NCBI GenBank assembly: GCA_015075545.1
Contig: JABTUC010000001.1
Span: 992,001 to 1,056,000, forward strand
Source of the DNA: Ideonella sp.
GTDB taxonomy: Bacteria > Pseudomonadota > Gammaproteobacteria > Burkholderiales > Burkholderiaceae_C
Length of the DNA: 64,000 nucleotides
Direction: 5' to 3'
Part shown: positions 5,278 to 11,014 of the stretch, in pieces
Layout: each line of letters begins with the position of its first letter
Numbering within the stretch: position 1 is the first letter of the stretch
The notes under the pieces: model-generated
Told to the model about the DNA's origin: nothing
Seen by the model: only the letters and a program-made list of their open reading frames with translations
Database searches by the model: none
Program-made: the position numbers and the translations under genes

Positions 5278-5293
5278 GTCTTCGATCGACCAA

Positions 5294-5329
5294 GAAAAAA
5301 AGCAGGCCACCCGCGAGGTGATGGCCTGC
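5294..5329 (-). terminator. rho-independent terminator between rplT and pheS
   Basis: On the minus strand the arms GCAGGCCA and TGGCCTGC form an 8-bp GC-rich stem around a 12-base loop, followed directly by a T-rich run ending TTTTTTTCTT. It lies about 17 bases before the pheS ATG. The region between rplT and this hairpin encodes no Phe-rich leader peptide like enterobacterial pheM, so I read it as a partial operon-internal terminator and not as a Phe attenuator. Confidence 0.85.
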
Positions 5330-5410
5330 CCTGTTGGCTGCAACCGGCGGTGCCTCAGGCAGCCGCCGCGTTGCGTCGGCCGGCGGCGAGCGCGCGGCCG
5401 TGCATTCGCT

Positions 5411-6736: not shown

Positions 6737-6774
6737 AAAACGAAAAGCGCGCCGAAGGCTCAGACCTTGCGCGC
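6737..6774 (-). terminator. probable rho-independent terminator at the end of thrS
   Basis: Minus-strand arms GCGCGC-AAGG and CCTT-CG-GCGCGC enclose the thrS stop codon in the loop and are followed by TTTTCGTTTTGTT. The stem is about 10 bp with a 2-base bulge. It would partly separate thrS from infC transcription. Confidence 0.6.
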
Positions 6775-8679
6775 GACGTCGTCGGCGATCTTCTGCGAGA
6801 AGACCTCGACCGACATCGCACCGAGATCCACGTTGCCCCGGGCGCGCACCGAAACGGCCCCGCTTGCCTTTTCCTTGTCGCCAACGACCAGGATGTACGG
6901 GACCTTCAGCATCGAATGCTCGCGTATCTTATAGCCGATCTTGTCGCTGCGCAAATCGGCATTGACTCTAACCCCTTGTTTTTGAAGCCGTTTCGCCACA
7001 TCCGCGGCATAGTCGGCCTGCGCCTCGGCGATCGGCGCCACCACCGCCTGCCGCGGCGCCAGCCATGCCGGCATGGCGCCGGCGTGCTGCTCGATCAGGA
7101 TGCCGATGAAGCGCTCCATGCTGCCGACGATCGCCCGGTGCAGCATCACCGGCGCCTCCCGCGCGCTCGCCTCGGTGACGTACTCGGCGCCCAGGCGTTC
7201 GGCCATGTTGAAGTCGACTTGCATCGTGCCGCACTGCCACTGGCGGCCGATGGCGTCTTTCAGCGTGTACTCGATCTTCGGGCCGTAGAAGGCGCCCTCG
7301 CCCGGCGACACCGTGAAATCGCAGCCCGAGCGGCGCAGCGACTCCATCAACGCCTGCTCGGCCTTGTCCCACTGCGCGTCGGAGCCCACGCGCGGGTCGG
7401 GCCGCGTGGCCACCTTGTAGATGACCTCCGTGAAGCCGAAGTCGCGGTATACCTTCTGCAGCAGCGCCGTGTAGGCGACGCATTCGTCGAGGATCTGCTC
7501 CTCGGTGCAGAAGATGTGGCCGTCGTCCTGCGTGAAGCCGCGCACGCGCATGATGCCGTGCAGCGCGCCGCTCGGCTCGTTGCGATGGCAGGCGCCGAAC
7601 TCGCCGTAGCGCAGCGGCAGGTCGCGGTAGCTCTTGATGCCCTGCTTGAAGATCAGGATGTGGCCGGGGCAGTTCATCGGCTTGAGCGCGTACTCGCGCT
7701 TCTCCGACTCGGTGACGAACATGTTCTCGCGGTAGTTGTCCCAGTGGCCCGTCTTCTCCCACAGGCTCTTGTCGAGGATCTGCGGGCCGCGCACTTCGAG
7801 GTAGCCGTTGTCGCGGTAGACCGCGCGCATGTACTGCTCCACCTGCTGCCAGATGACCCAGCCGTTGGCATGCCAGAACACCAACCCCGGCGAGTGCTCG
7901 TCCATGTGGAACAGGTCGAGTTCGCGGCCGAGCTTGCGGTGGTCGCGCTTCTCGGCCTCCTCGAGCATGCGCAGGTAGGCCTGCAGTTCGTCCTTGGTGG
8001 CCCACGCCGTGCCGTAGATGCGCTGCAGCTGCTCGTTGTTCTGGTCGCCGCGCCAGTAGGCACCGGCCACTTTCATCAGCTTGAAGTGCTTCAGCCGCCC
8101 CGTGCTCGGCACGTGCGGGCCACGGCAGAGGTCTTCGAAGCCGCCCTCGCGGTACAGCGACACCTCCTCGCCGGCCGGGATGCTGCCGATGATCTCTGCC
8201 TTGTAGTGCTCGCCCAGGCCCTTGAAGTACGCCACCGCCTCGTCGCGCGGCAGCACGCGGCGCACCACCGGCTCGTTCTTCGCCGCCAGTTCGGCCATGC
8301 GCTGCTCGATCGCCGCCAGATCCTCCGGCGTGAACGGACGCTTGTAGGCGAAGTCGTAGTAGAAGCCGTTCTCGATCACCGGGCCGATCGTCACCTGCGC
8401 GTCGGGGAACAGCTCCTTCACCGCGTAGGCGAGCAGGTGCGCCGTGGAGTGCCGCAGGATCTCGAGGCCGTCGGGGTCCTTGTCGGTGACGATCGCCAGC
8501 GCCGCATCGTCCGTGACGCGATGGTTCAGGTCGACCAACCGCGCGCCCGCACCGCTGCCGAGGCGGCCCGCCAGTGCCGCCTTGGCCAGGCCTGGCCCGA
8601 TCGCCGCTGCGACGTCGCCGACGGTCGGCGGCTGCGCAAACTCGCGTCGGGAGCCGTCGGGCAGCGTGATCTTGATCAT
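6760..8679 (-). CDS. thrS: threonine--tRNA ligase
   Basis: A 639-residue class II synthetase of normal length. In order: TGS domain ([15 protein letters not shown] onward), the N2 editing domain with [16 protein letters not shown], the SAD region, the catalytic core with [30 protein letters not shown] and [12 protein letters not shown] carrying the zinc-binding Cys and His residues, and a C-terminal anticodon-binding domain ([11 protein letters not shown]). The ATG at 8679 follows GAGGATTGACATC; a start 7 codons earlier would sit in the attenuator U-tract. It is preceded by a Thr-rich leader ORF and a terminator hairpin. Confidence 0.97.
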
Positions 8680-8698
8680 GATGTCAATCCTCGGTGGC

Positions 8699-8722
8699 AA
8701 AAAAAACGCGGCTCGCGCCGCG
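8699..8722 (-). terminator. attenuator hairpin immediately upstream of thrS
   Basis: On the minus strand CGCGGC-GCGA-GCCGCG, a perfect 6-bp stem with a tetraloop, is followed by eight T residues. The run ends about 20 bases before the thrS ATG and 22 bases after the leader-peptide stop codon. Its position between the Thr-rich leader ORF and thrS fits transcription attenuation. Confidence 0.8.
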
Positions 8723-8744
8723 CTTCGTGATGGATCGGGTAAGG

Positions 8745-8804
8745 CTAGGGACGAGCGCGCGCGACCGACTGGGCATCGGTGGTGCCGGTCGTTCGCGGTG
8801 TCAT
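8745..8804 (-). CDS. putative thrS leader peptide (threonine-rich)
   Basis: A 19-codon frame from ATG 8804 to [22 protein letters not shown]. Five of its first nine residues are Thr, encoded by ACA, ACG and three ACC codons. A modest GAAGGG ribosome-binding site lies 10 bases upstream. It is followed by the attenuator hairpin and then thrS. A hairpin that can form over the Thr codons (GACCGGCA against TGCC and CGGTC) is a candidate pause structure. By analogy with classical amino-acid attenuators, ribosome stalling at Thr codons when charged tRNA-Thr is low would favour read-through. This is inference from layout. Confidence 0.65.
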
Positions 8805-8906
8805 AACAATGGTGCCCTTCTCAGCCCTTGTGCATCGATGATTCGCAAATTCTAGTTCACAGCGCGCGCGCCGGCGCGCCAATGTTGCGCAAACTTCGCG
8901 ATCGGA

Positions 8907-10565
8907 TCAATGCGGCATCGCGCGGGCGATCAGCGCATCGAGCGGTGCACCGCCCGGCAGCAGCCCGAACGCCCCGCCCCCGCCGATGGCATCGCCGAAC
9001 CGCGACGCGCAGAAGCTGTCGAACATCTCGGCCGGCGCGTGCTGGCGCAGTAACGCCGCCTGCACGGCGAGGGCGACATCGCGTGCAAGGCGGCGCGCAT
9101 CGGCTTCGTCGGTGGTGCCATCCACGCGCGCCGGCAGGCTGTCGGCGAGCCGATCGAGCGCCGCGTTGGCACCGCGCGCGGGCGCCAGCTCGTGCATCAG
9201 CGCGTCGGCCACCGGGCCGGTGCGCAGCGCGCGCAGCAGATCGATGGCCTGGATGTTGCCCGCGCCCTCCCAGATCGAATTGACCGGCATCTCGCGGTAG
9301 ACGCGCGCCATCACGCCCTCGCCGTTGTCTTCGACGTAGCCGTTGCCGCCGAGGCACTCCATCGCCTCCTGCGCAAACAGGCTGCCGCGCTTGCAGATCC
9401 AGAACTTGCCGATCGGCGTCAACACGCGGCGGATCAACGCCTCGTGGCCGCTGGCGTCCTGCCCGTTCTCGCTGCGGTCGAGCGAGCGCGCCAGGCGCAA
9501 CGCCAACGCGGTGGCAGCCTCGCTCTCGAGAGCGAGGTCGGCGAGCACGCTCTTCATGGCCGGCTGGTCGATCAGCCGCTTGCCGAATGCTCGACGCTCA
9601 CTGCAGTGGTGCAGCGCCAGCGTCAACGCCTGGCGCATCAGACCCGCCGTGCCGAGCGAGCAGTCGAGCCGCGTGATCGCACCCATCGCGAGGATCTGCG
9701 GCACGCCACGGCCCTCGTCGCCGACCCGCCACGCCACCGAGCGGTCGAACTCGACCTCGGAGCTGGCGTTGGCCTTGTTGCCGAGCTTGTCCTTCAGGCG
9801 CTGGATGCGCAGCACGTTGGGCGTGCCGTCGGGCAGCCAGCGCGGCATGAAGTAGCAGCTCAGGCCGCCCGCGGCCTGCGCCAGCACCAGGAACGCATCG
9901 CACATCGGCGCCGACAGGAACCACTTGTGCCCGGTGATGCGCACGCGCTCGCCCCAGGCGTCGCGGCCGTCGGGCTCGGCGCGCGTGGTGTTGGCGCGCA
10001 CGTCGGAGCCGCCTTGCTTCTCGGTCATGCCCATGCCGAGCGTGACGGCGGGCTTCTGCGGCATCGGCACGAAGCGCGGGTCGTACTGCGTGCCGGCGAT
10101 GGCGCCGCGCCAGGCCTCGTACAGCGGCGCATTGGCGCGCAGCGACGGCGTCACCGCGTAGCTCATCGACACCGGGCACAGCACCGATGGCTCGGCCTGC
10201 GTCCACACGACGAAGCCCGCAGCGCGCTCGACGTGCGCGCCGGGCCCGCGCGACCACGGCGCGCCGTGCAGGCCGTGGCGCAGCGCGCCGCCGAGCAGCA
10301 CGTGGTAGCTCGGGTGGAACTCCACCTGATCGATGCGGTGGCCGAAGCGGTCGAAGCTGCGCAGCTCCGGCGTGTGCACGTTGGCCAGCCGCGCGTGCTC
10401 GCCTGTCGCCGCCGACCCCGCCTCGGCGCCGAGCACCGACAGCGCCTTGGTGTCGAGCTGCGGCGCGTTGAAGCGCAGCGCGTCGCGCAGCCCACGATCG
10501 GTGTCGAACAGATTGACGTCGACGAACGGCGTGCTCTGGTTGGTGACTTCGTGCGTCTGGCTCAT
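8907..10565 (-). CDS. aidB: AidB-like acyl-CoA dehydrogenase
   Basis: A 552-residue FAD enzyme closer to E. coli AidB than to ordinary 380-residue acyl-CoA dehydrogenases: the N-terminal extension with NQSTPFVDVNLFDTD, ARLANVHTPELRSFDRFGHR, GMGMTEKQGGSDVRANTTRAE, HKWFLSAPMCDAFLVLAQA and EAMECLGGNGYVED are all AidB-type. AidB binds DNA and is induced in alkylation damage in E. coli, yet here the gene is the last of a beta-oxidation cluster, so a metabolic acyl-CoA role is at least as likely. The ATG at 10565 follows GAAGGAGCGGGTC and overlaps the stop of the upstream acetyltransferase gene by four bases, so translation is coupled. Confidence 0.88.
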   Translation of the reverse strand: MSQTHEVTNQSTPFVDVNLFDTDRGLRDALRFNAPQLDTKALSVLGAEAGSAATGEHARLANVHTPELRSFDRFGHRIDQVEFHPSYHVLLGGALRHGLHGAPWSRGPGAHVERAAGFVVWTQAEPSVLCPVSMSYAVTPSLRANAPLYEAWRGAIAGTQYDPRFVPMPQKPAVTLGMGMTEKQGGSDVRANTTRAEPDGRDAWGERVRITGHKWFLSAPMCDAFLVLAQAAGGLSCYFMPRWLPDGTPNVLRIQRLKDKLGNKANASSEVEFDRSVAWRVGDEGRGVPQILAMGAITRLDCSLGTAGLMRQALTLALHHCSERRAFGKRLIDQPAMKSVLADLALESEAATALALRLARSLDRSENGQDASGHEALIRRVLTPIGKFWICKRGSLFAQEAMECLGGNGYVEDNGEGVMARVYREMPVNSIWEGAGNIQAIDLLRALRTGPVADALMHELAPARGANAALDRLADSLPARVDGTTDEADARRLARDVALAVQAALLRQHAPAEMFDSFCASRFGDAIGGGGAFGLLPGGAPLDALIARAMPH

Positions 10566-11014
10566 GACCCGCTCCTTCGCATCTGCACGTGGGGGACTCC
10601 GTCCTCGAGGTACTCGTCCGACGCAGTTTCGAAGCCATGCTGCCGGTAGAAGCGCTGCAGGCGCGCCTGCGCGCTGATGCGCACCGCGTGCCCGGGCCAC
10701 GTCAACGCGCAGCGCGCCAGGCCCTCGCGCATCAGTGCGTGGCCGAAACCGCGCCCGCGCAGCGCCGCGTCGACCACCACGCGCCCGATCGAGACCTCGT
10801 CGTATTTCACCCCGGGATCCAGCAGCCGAAGATAGGCCATCAGTTCGCCGCCGGCCTTGCGCCCGAGCAAGTGCCAGGCGGATCGGTCGGCGCCGTCGGG
10901 GTCGAGAAACGGCCCCTGCTCGAGCACGAACACGCGCGCGCGCAGCGCCAGCATGTCGTAGACGCCGTCGGCGCCGAGGTCACCGAAGCGCAGCCACACC
11001 CACGCCAGCGGCAT
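10562..11014 (-). CDS. GNAT-family N-acetyltransferase, ElaA type
   Basis: A 150-residue protein with ElaA features: LRARVFVLEQGPFLDPDGAD near the N terminus and the acetyl-CoA-binding segment IGRVVVDAALRGRGFGHALM, where RGRGFG is the pyrophosphate-binding motif A. The C terminus HGFETASDEYLEDGVPH matches the family. Acceptor substrate is unknown. It starts directly after the stop of the MDR oxidoreductase gene and overlaps aidB by ATGA, so it belongs to the same transcript. Confidence 0.85.
   Translation of the reverse strand: MPLAWVWLRFGDLGADGVYDMLALRARVFVLEQGPFLDPDGADRSAWHLLGRKAGGELMAYLRLLDPGVKYDEVSIGRVVVDAALRGRGFGHALMREGLARCALTWPGHAVRISAQARLQRFYRQHGFETASDEYLEDGVPHVQMRRSGS

Follow-up and report, generated by a model that had tools for sequence, protein, structure and literature searches.

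The window analysed here, a 64,000-nt stretch of an Ideonella sp. contig, carries on its minus strand the threonyl-tRNA synthetase (ThrRS) gene thrS (6760..8679; TIGR00418, 719 bits), followed downstream on the same strand by infC, rplT and pheS (profile scores of 226, 161 and 303 bits, respectively). Ahead of thrS, a 19-codon leader ORF that is kept in relatives runs from an ATG at 8804 to a TAG at 8745 and contains five Thr codons within its first nine residues: ACA at codon 2, ACG at codon 5, and ACC at codons 6, 8 and 9. The ORF is preceded by a Shine-Dalgarno-like GAGAAGGG (8815..8822, minus strand) and by a −10-like box, TAGAAT (8849..8854, minus strand), the probable promoter of the leader transcript. 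Between the leader and thrS, the fold and a terminator scan placed a terminator-like hairpin with eight T residues (8699..8726, minus strand). A previous sequence-only reading of this DNA had described the 19-codon frame with its five Thr codons, a GC-rich hairpin with eight T residues about 20 bases before the thrS ATG, an alternative hairpin over the Thr codons, and thrS as the downstream gene; all four were recovered in our analysis. From these features that reading had proposed control of thrS by ribosome stalling at Thr codons.

To put the leader in context, we compared three sets of thrS upstream regions: a family sample comprising the window and 80 regions obtained from 117 matching genomes among 120 searched; 79 of 80 loci of named relatives (genome_contigs loci; L220, with 5 bases upstream, was left out); and an order-wide sample of 60 regions, one to three per family, from 48 families. 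A strict motif, consisting of a start codon followed by ACN CCN CGN AC, was present in 70 of the 81 regions of the window's own family and in 48 of the 79 named relatives, including Acidovorax, Rhodoferax, Polaromonas, Hydrogenophaga, Roseateles, Ramlibacter, Leptothrix and Sphaerotilus; the short ORF, whose conservation the sequence-only reading had proposed to test, is conserved among relatives. The 124 motif-bearing loci, six of them from the order sample, gave 121 distinct leaders after removal of three duplicates. Two of these (L173 and L217) had no hairpin under our rule and were left out of the pairing, codon and covariation counts, which refer to the remaining 119.

In the window, at least five Thr in nine residues had a binomial p of 1.4e-5 at the 4.2% Thr content of eight window genes, a value calculated post hoc. 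Across relatives, Thr at codons 2 and 5 was fixed as part of the search motif, and Thr frequencies at codons 6 to 11 were 72, 45, 23, 24, 19 and 20%, falling to 4% at codon 12 and remaining rare thereafter. Over codons 6–10, Thr codons accounted for 36% in frame, compared to 1% in frame +1 and 3% in frame +2. All four Thr codons were in use at codon 6 across the leaders, and the nucleotides varied from this position on. The mixed Thr codons at positions 6–9, together with the in-frame enrichment, point to selection on the amino acid, and the proposed test for conserved Thr codons amid varying peptide sequence supports the sequence-only reading. The leader was 12–13 codons long in 78 of 119 cases, and 16 of 119 leaders had only two Thr codons, those of the core described below. 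A purine-rich GAGAAAGG at −18 to −11 was kept in 120–121 aligned leaders.

The most conserved part of the leader was not the Thr run. It was a 19-nt core around the start codon, with the consensus GGTTATGACACCGCGAACT (bases −4 to +15), which the sequence-only reading had missed. In the window the core, which spans the start codon and codons 2–5 and includes the pairing segment 1, reads TGTTATGACACCGCGAACG (8790..8808, minus strand) and differs from the consensus at two places, T for the first G and ACG for ACT at codon 5. Synonymous sites included, the core hardly varied: 105 of 121 leaders matched GGTTATGACACCGCGAAC exactly with T or G as the last base, and A at +6, G at +9, A at +12 and T at +15 were found in 120, 121, 113 and 108 of 121, respectively, with counts at pattern-fixed bases of the family sample being conditional on the search motif and the synonymous sites left free. 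Codon 2 was ACA in 118 of 119 leaders and codon 5 was ACT in 107. Both are rare in the eight window genes, where ACA and ACT each occur once among 126 Thr codons and 7 of 218 Arg codons are CGA; for one of these genes (8907-10655) reading began at an internal frame position. This codon choice suggests a sensor role for the rare Thr codons that the core keeps constant. Bases −4 to −1 are nearly invariant as well, GGTT standing directly before the leader ATG in 114 of 121, which codons do not account for; for these bases and the CCG a different explanation is needed, which may lie in initiation or in the pairing of segment 1.

In 85 of 119 relatives a TANAAT box occurred in the interval −75 to −28 relative to the leader ATG, compared to 1.9% of shuffled sequences, with a median position of −50; downstream of that ATG, up to thrS, such a box was present in only 1 of 121. 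A generic promoter scan found no full sigma-70 consensus site at the window leader. This placement, about 50 nt ahead of the leader in those 85 relatives, makes an upstream promoter for the leader transcript probable and speaks against the other possibility raised by the sequence-only reading, a transcript that starts downstream of the leader.

The window hairpin consists of GAAGCGCGGC, a gcga loop and GCCGCGTTTT, followed by eight T residues at 8706-8699 and then by 19 bases before the thrS ATG (8679-8677). It was the single site, on the leader strand, returned by the terminator scan of 8500-9000, compared to 0.3 in shuffles. A hairpin with a T run preceded thrS in 119 of 121 distinct leaders and in only 102 of 1210 mononucleotide shuffles. 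A second hairpin, formed by 8797-8784 with 8769-8756, closes over Thr codons 5–9. Its downstream arm belongs to segment 2 (8750..8769, minus strand), the partner of segment 1 or, alternatively, of the terminator's 5′ arm (8764-8751 with 8728-8713); the terminator itself represents segments 3 and 4. The whole 141-nt stretch folded better (z = −2.28) than expected from its dinucleotide shuffles, of which 4 of 200 did as well.

The two pairings were also compared among relatives. The site pairing best with segment 1 and the one pairing best with the terminator 5′ arm shared 5 nt or more in 107 of 119 leaders versus 713 of 1190 shuffles. The segment 1 partner lay close to the leader stop codon in 105 of 119 leaders (84 expected) and the 5′-arm partner in 101 (66 expected). 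By dinucleotide-shuffle z scores, the 1:2 pairing was weakly better than expected (mean −0.65; 30% below −1) and the 2:3 pairing moderately so (mean −1.29; 54%). The real partners gave better 2:3 energies than swapped ones, which did as well in 20 of 5000 permutations, and one flanking pair covaried (60% versus 41%; 0 of 500 swaps; 101 of 119 leaders usable), all these pairing comparisons being uncorrected for relatedness; the covariation test favoured sites 3′ of the stop codon, which biased the site offsets. A Fisher table on covariation from 51 of the 119 leaders (68 with the pattern, minus 17 with other letters) contrasted 19 A and 13 C with 0 A and 19 C (p = 1e-5, likewise uncorrected for relatedness). 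In most relatives the equivalent of segment 2 adjoins the leader stop codon, on its 3′ side, whereas the window has segment 2 within the ORF. In the window (8745-8771) and in one relative (L011), the leader continues for several codons through segment 2; in most relatives the stop codon stands just before it.

Equilibrium folding of the window sequence kept the terminator with a ribosome at the stop codon and lost it, with the antiterminator forming, when a ribosome was stalled at codon 6. With the stall at codon 8 or 9, the terminator still folded in the full transcript, and the antiterminator appeared only when the RNA was cut before the 3′ arm. The attenuation model thus depends on co-transcriptional timing.

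Taken together, the leader, its in-frame Thr enrichment, the hairpin, the overlapping pairing sites and their conservation argue for control of thrS by a ribosome-mediated (leader-peptide) transcription attenuator, a reading to which we give a probability of roughly 80%. Such a leader would very probably let the cell make more ThrRS when charged Thr-tRNA is short. From this arrangement we infer the start site, the translation of the leader, the stalling, the termination and the response to threonine. Transcription would start about 40 nt upstream of the leader ORF. With plentiful charged Thr-tRNA, the ribosome would read the Thr codons through to the stop and occupy or pass segment 2, allowing the hairpin with its T run to form and transcription to end before thrS. 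Under a shortage of charged Thr-tRNA, the ribosome would stall on the Thr codons and cover segment 1 (codons 1–5), leaving segment 2 free to pair with the terminator 5′ arm, and RNA polymerase would enter thrS. If the leader is not translated, segments 1 and 2 would pair and the terminator would form. The stalling mechanism proposed by the sequence-only reading is thereby supported through conservation, though as a property neither universal in the family, with 11 of 81 loci lacking the strict motif, nor centred on the Thr run, the most conserved part being the core.

The near-invariant core is also the starting point for a different sensor. ThrRS itself might bind the leader RNA near the core and block leader translation, causing termination, so that the enzyme rather than stalled ribosomes would report on threonine. 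Conservation of the core at synonymous sites goes beyond what amino-acid sensing alone demands, and in the loci read the core was seen before one gene only: with at most one mismatch it occurred in 34 of 300 genomes of the order, once per genome, and all 30 of these 34 loci that were read lay before thrS (28 recognised by an LPDGS-type motif and two with LPDNS). In the class, the core was found in 3 of 274 genomes, all from the window's own family. A precedent exists in E. coli, where ThrRS binds its own mRNA and autoregulates translation at the thrS operator. That operator acts on the same gene, but without a terminator or leader peptide, and it has a stem-loop, unlike the leader start region here: alignment folding of 112 distinct sequences from −26 to +18 of the leader start gave no consensus stem (alifold energy 0.00), and an E. 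coli-type operator was rejected for this leader start region. With no consensus stem around the leader start, no anticodon-arm mimic was seen; an anticodon-like GGT loop before the ATG, noticed by eye, was dropped because bases −9 to −5 vary. Binding of ThrRS would moreover leave the Thr enrichment at codons 6–11, with its mixed synonymous codons, without a role, and would not explain why the fixed codons are rare, as stalling would. We therefore regard ThrRS binding as unlikely. T-boxes and the threonine operon leader are among the Rfam families known to control synthetase or threonine genes through RNA; an Rfam search of the window gave no match at the gathering score except one tRNA, and at E values up to 10 the region 8600-8960 gave a single match to a weak sRNA family and no T-box. 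A T-box or another Rfam element was accordingly rejected.

Somewhat less probable still is that the hairpin is an ordinary terminator or the remnant of an upstream unit, ancestrally a tRNA-Val gene, with thrS expressed by constant readthrough and the leader having no regulatory role. The order-wide sample lends this some weight: in 45 of its 60 loci (L091-L150) tRNA-Val(GAC) preceded thrS, 44 of them read as being on the same strand and the other being L137, and many of these loci had a hairpin with a T run and no leader. The hairpin also outlasts the leader, being retained with its T run in 7 of the 11 family loci and 26 of the 31 named loci without the strict motif, where a TANAAT box stood ahead of it in 4 of the 7 and 13 of the 26. 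Hence the hairpin may have value of its own, and some lineages appear to have lost the leader but kept the hairpin. These loci are leaderless in the sense of lacking the strict motif, and some, by eye, have relaxed leaders (L205, L230). A plain terminator, however, leaves the conserved Thr codons, the fixed leader length and the overlapping pairing sites unaccounted for, and in the window's family tRNA-Val was upstream of thrS in none of 81 loci, while a −10-like box stands upstream of the leader. A general uORF effect, in which the leader merely raises thrS translation by reinitiation or keeps the 5′ end translated, is very improbable: reinitiation has been proposed where a leader gene has no control codons and its stop is near the downstream gene (PMC4833913), but in the window the leader stop is 65 nt from the thrS start, with a strong hairpin and the thrS Shine-Dalgarno sequence in between, and reinitiation has no need for Thr codons.

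Several of the loci without the strict motif had a common layout. In eight of them (L182, L187, L196, L198, L207, L209, L214 and L215) a TAAAAT-type box is followed after about 27 nt by a AAGCGCGG-type hairpin with a T run, 15–26 nt before thrS. A Bordetella petrii record (L230) has, by eye, the relaxed leader MISRPTRTTTGNFRPMSR and then a hairpin before thrS.

Beyond the window's family, a short ORF with in-frame ATG..CGAAC[TG] was present in 15 of 60 order loci (13 families), or 16 when L137, with the leader MTLRTCTKH, is included, compared to 0.35 in shuffles, and no such leader was found on the reverse strand of the 60 loci. Many order-wide leaders had no Thr run (for instance, MTPRTCFFLR and MTPRTFPSLI). 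The distribution of tRNA-Val(GAC) indicates an old linkage to thrS that was apparently lost in the window's family. These observations allow a tentative broader account within the attenuation reading: an order-wide attenuator might have arisen from a mini leader placed before the terminator of the upstream tRNA-Val gene, its sensor being the 19-nt core, with the rarest Thr codons (ACA and ACT) and the rare Arg codon CGA reading the charging of particular Thr isoacceptors directly, and the Thr run would be a later elaboration in one family, in which the tRNA gene was lost. Under the attenuation reading itself, many Burkholderiales would possess a thrS circuit unlike that of E. coli, set in the thrS-infC-rplT-pheS cluster. 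The natural variation, with loci that have the rare-codon core without or with a Thr run, only the hairpin, or tRNA-Val plus hairpin, bears on how attenuators arise and decay and on whether rare isoacceptor codons make better sensors.

Leader-peptide attenuators control the proteobacterial amino-acid operons thr, his, trp, leu and ilv, as well as pheA and pheST. With these the thrS leader shares a short ORF containing cognate codons, overlapping pairing segments and an intrinsic terminator; it differs in targeting a synthetase gene, in its length of 11–13 codons in most relatives, in a start region conserved at the nucleotide level and in fixed Thr codons that are the rare ACA and ACT. In Streptomyces lividans, a thrL leader with Thr codons has been proposed upstream of thrS (PMC8079986). 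That leader, MKRVRPFLETTPGFVPAR, has two Thr and a leaderless start, and one hairpin with no U-rich stretch was reported there (PMC8079986); by eye it showed no sequence similarity to the Burkholderiales leader. The mechanism of ribosome-mediated attenuation is already known; for its thrS case in Burkholderiales no report was found in the literature searched, and a 2010 comparative study on how synthetase operons are attenuated could already contain one. Elsewhere in the cluster, a strong hairpin with a T run behind it (about 5292-5332, minus strand) occupies the rplT-pheS gap immediately ahead of the pheS start, and no Phe-rich leader was seen in the stretch read.
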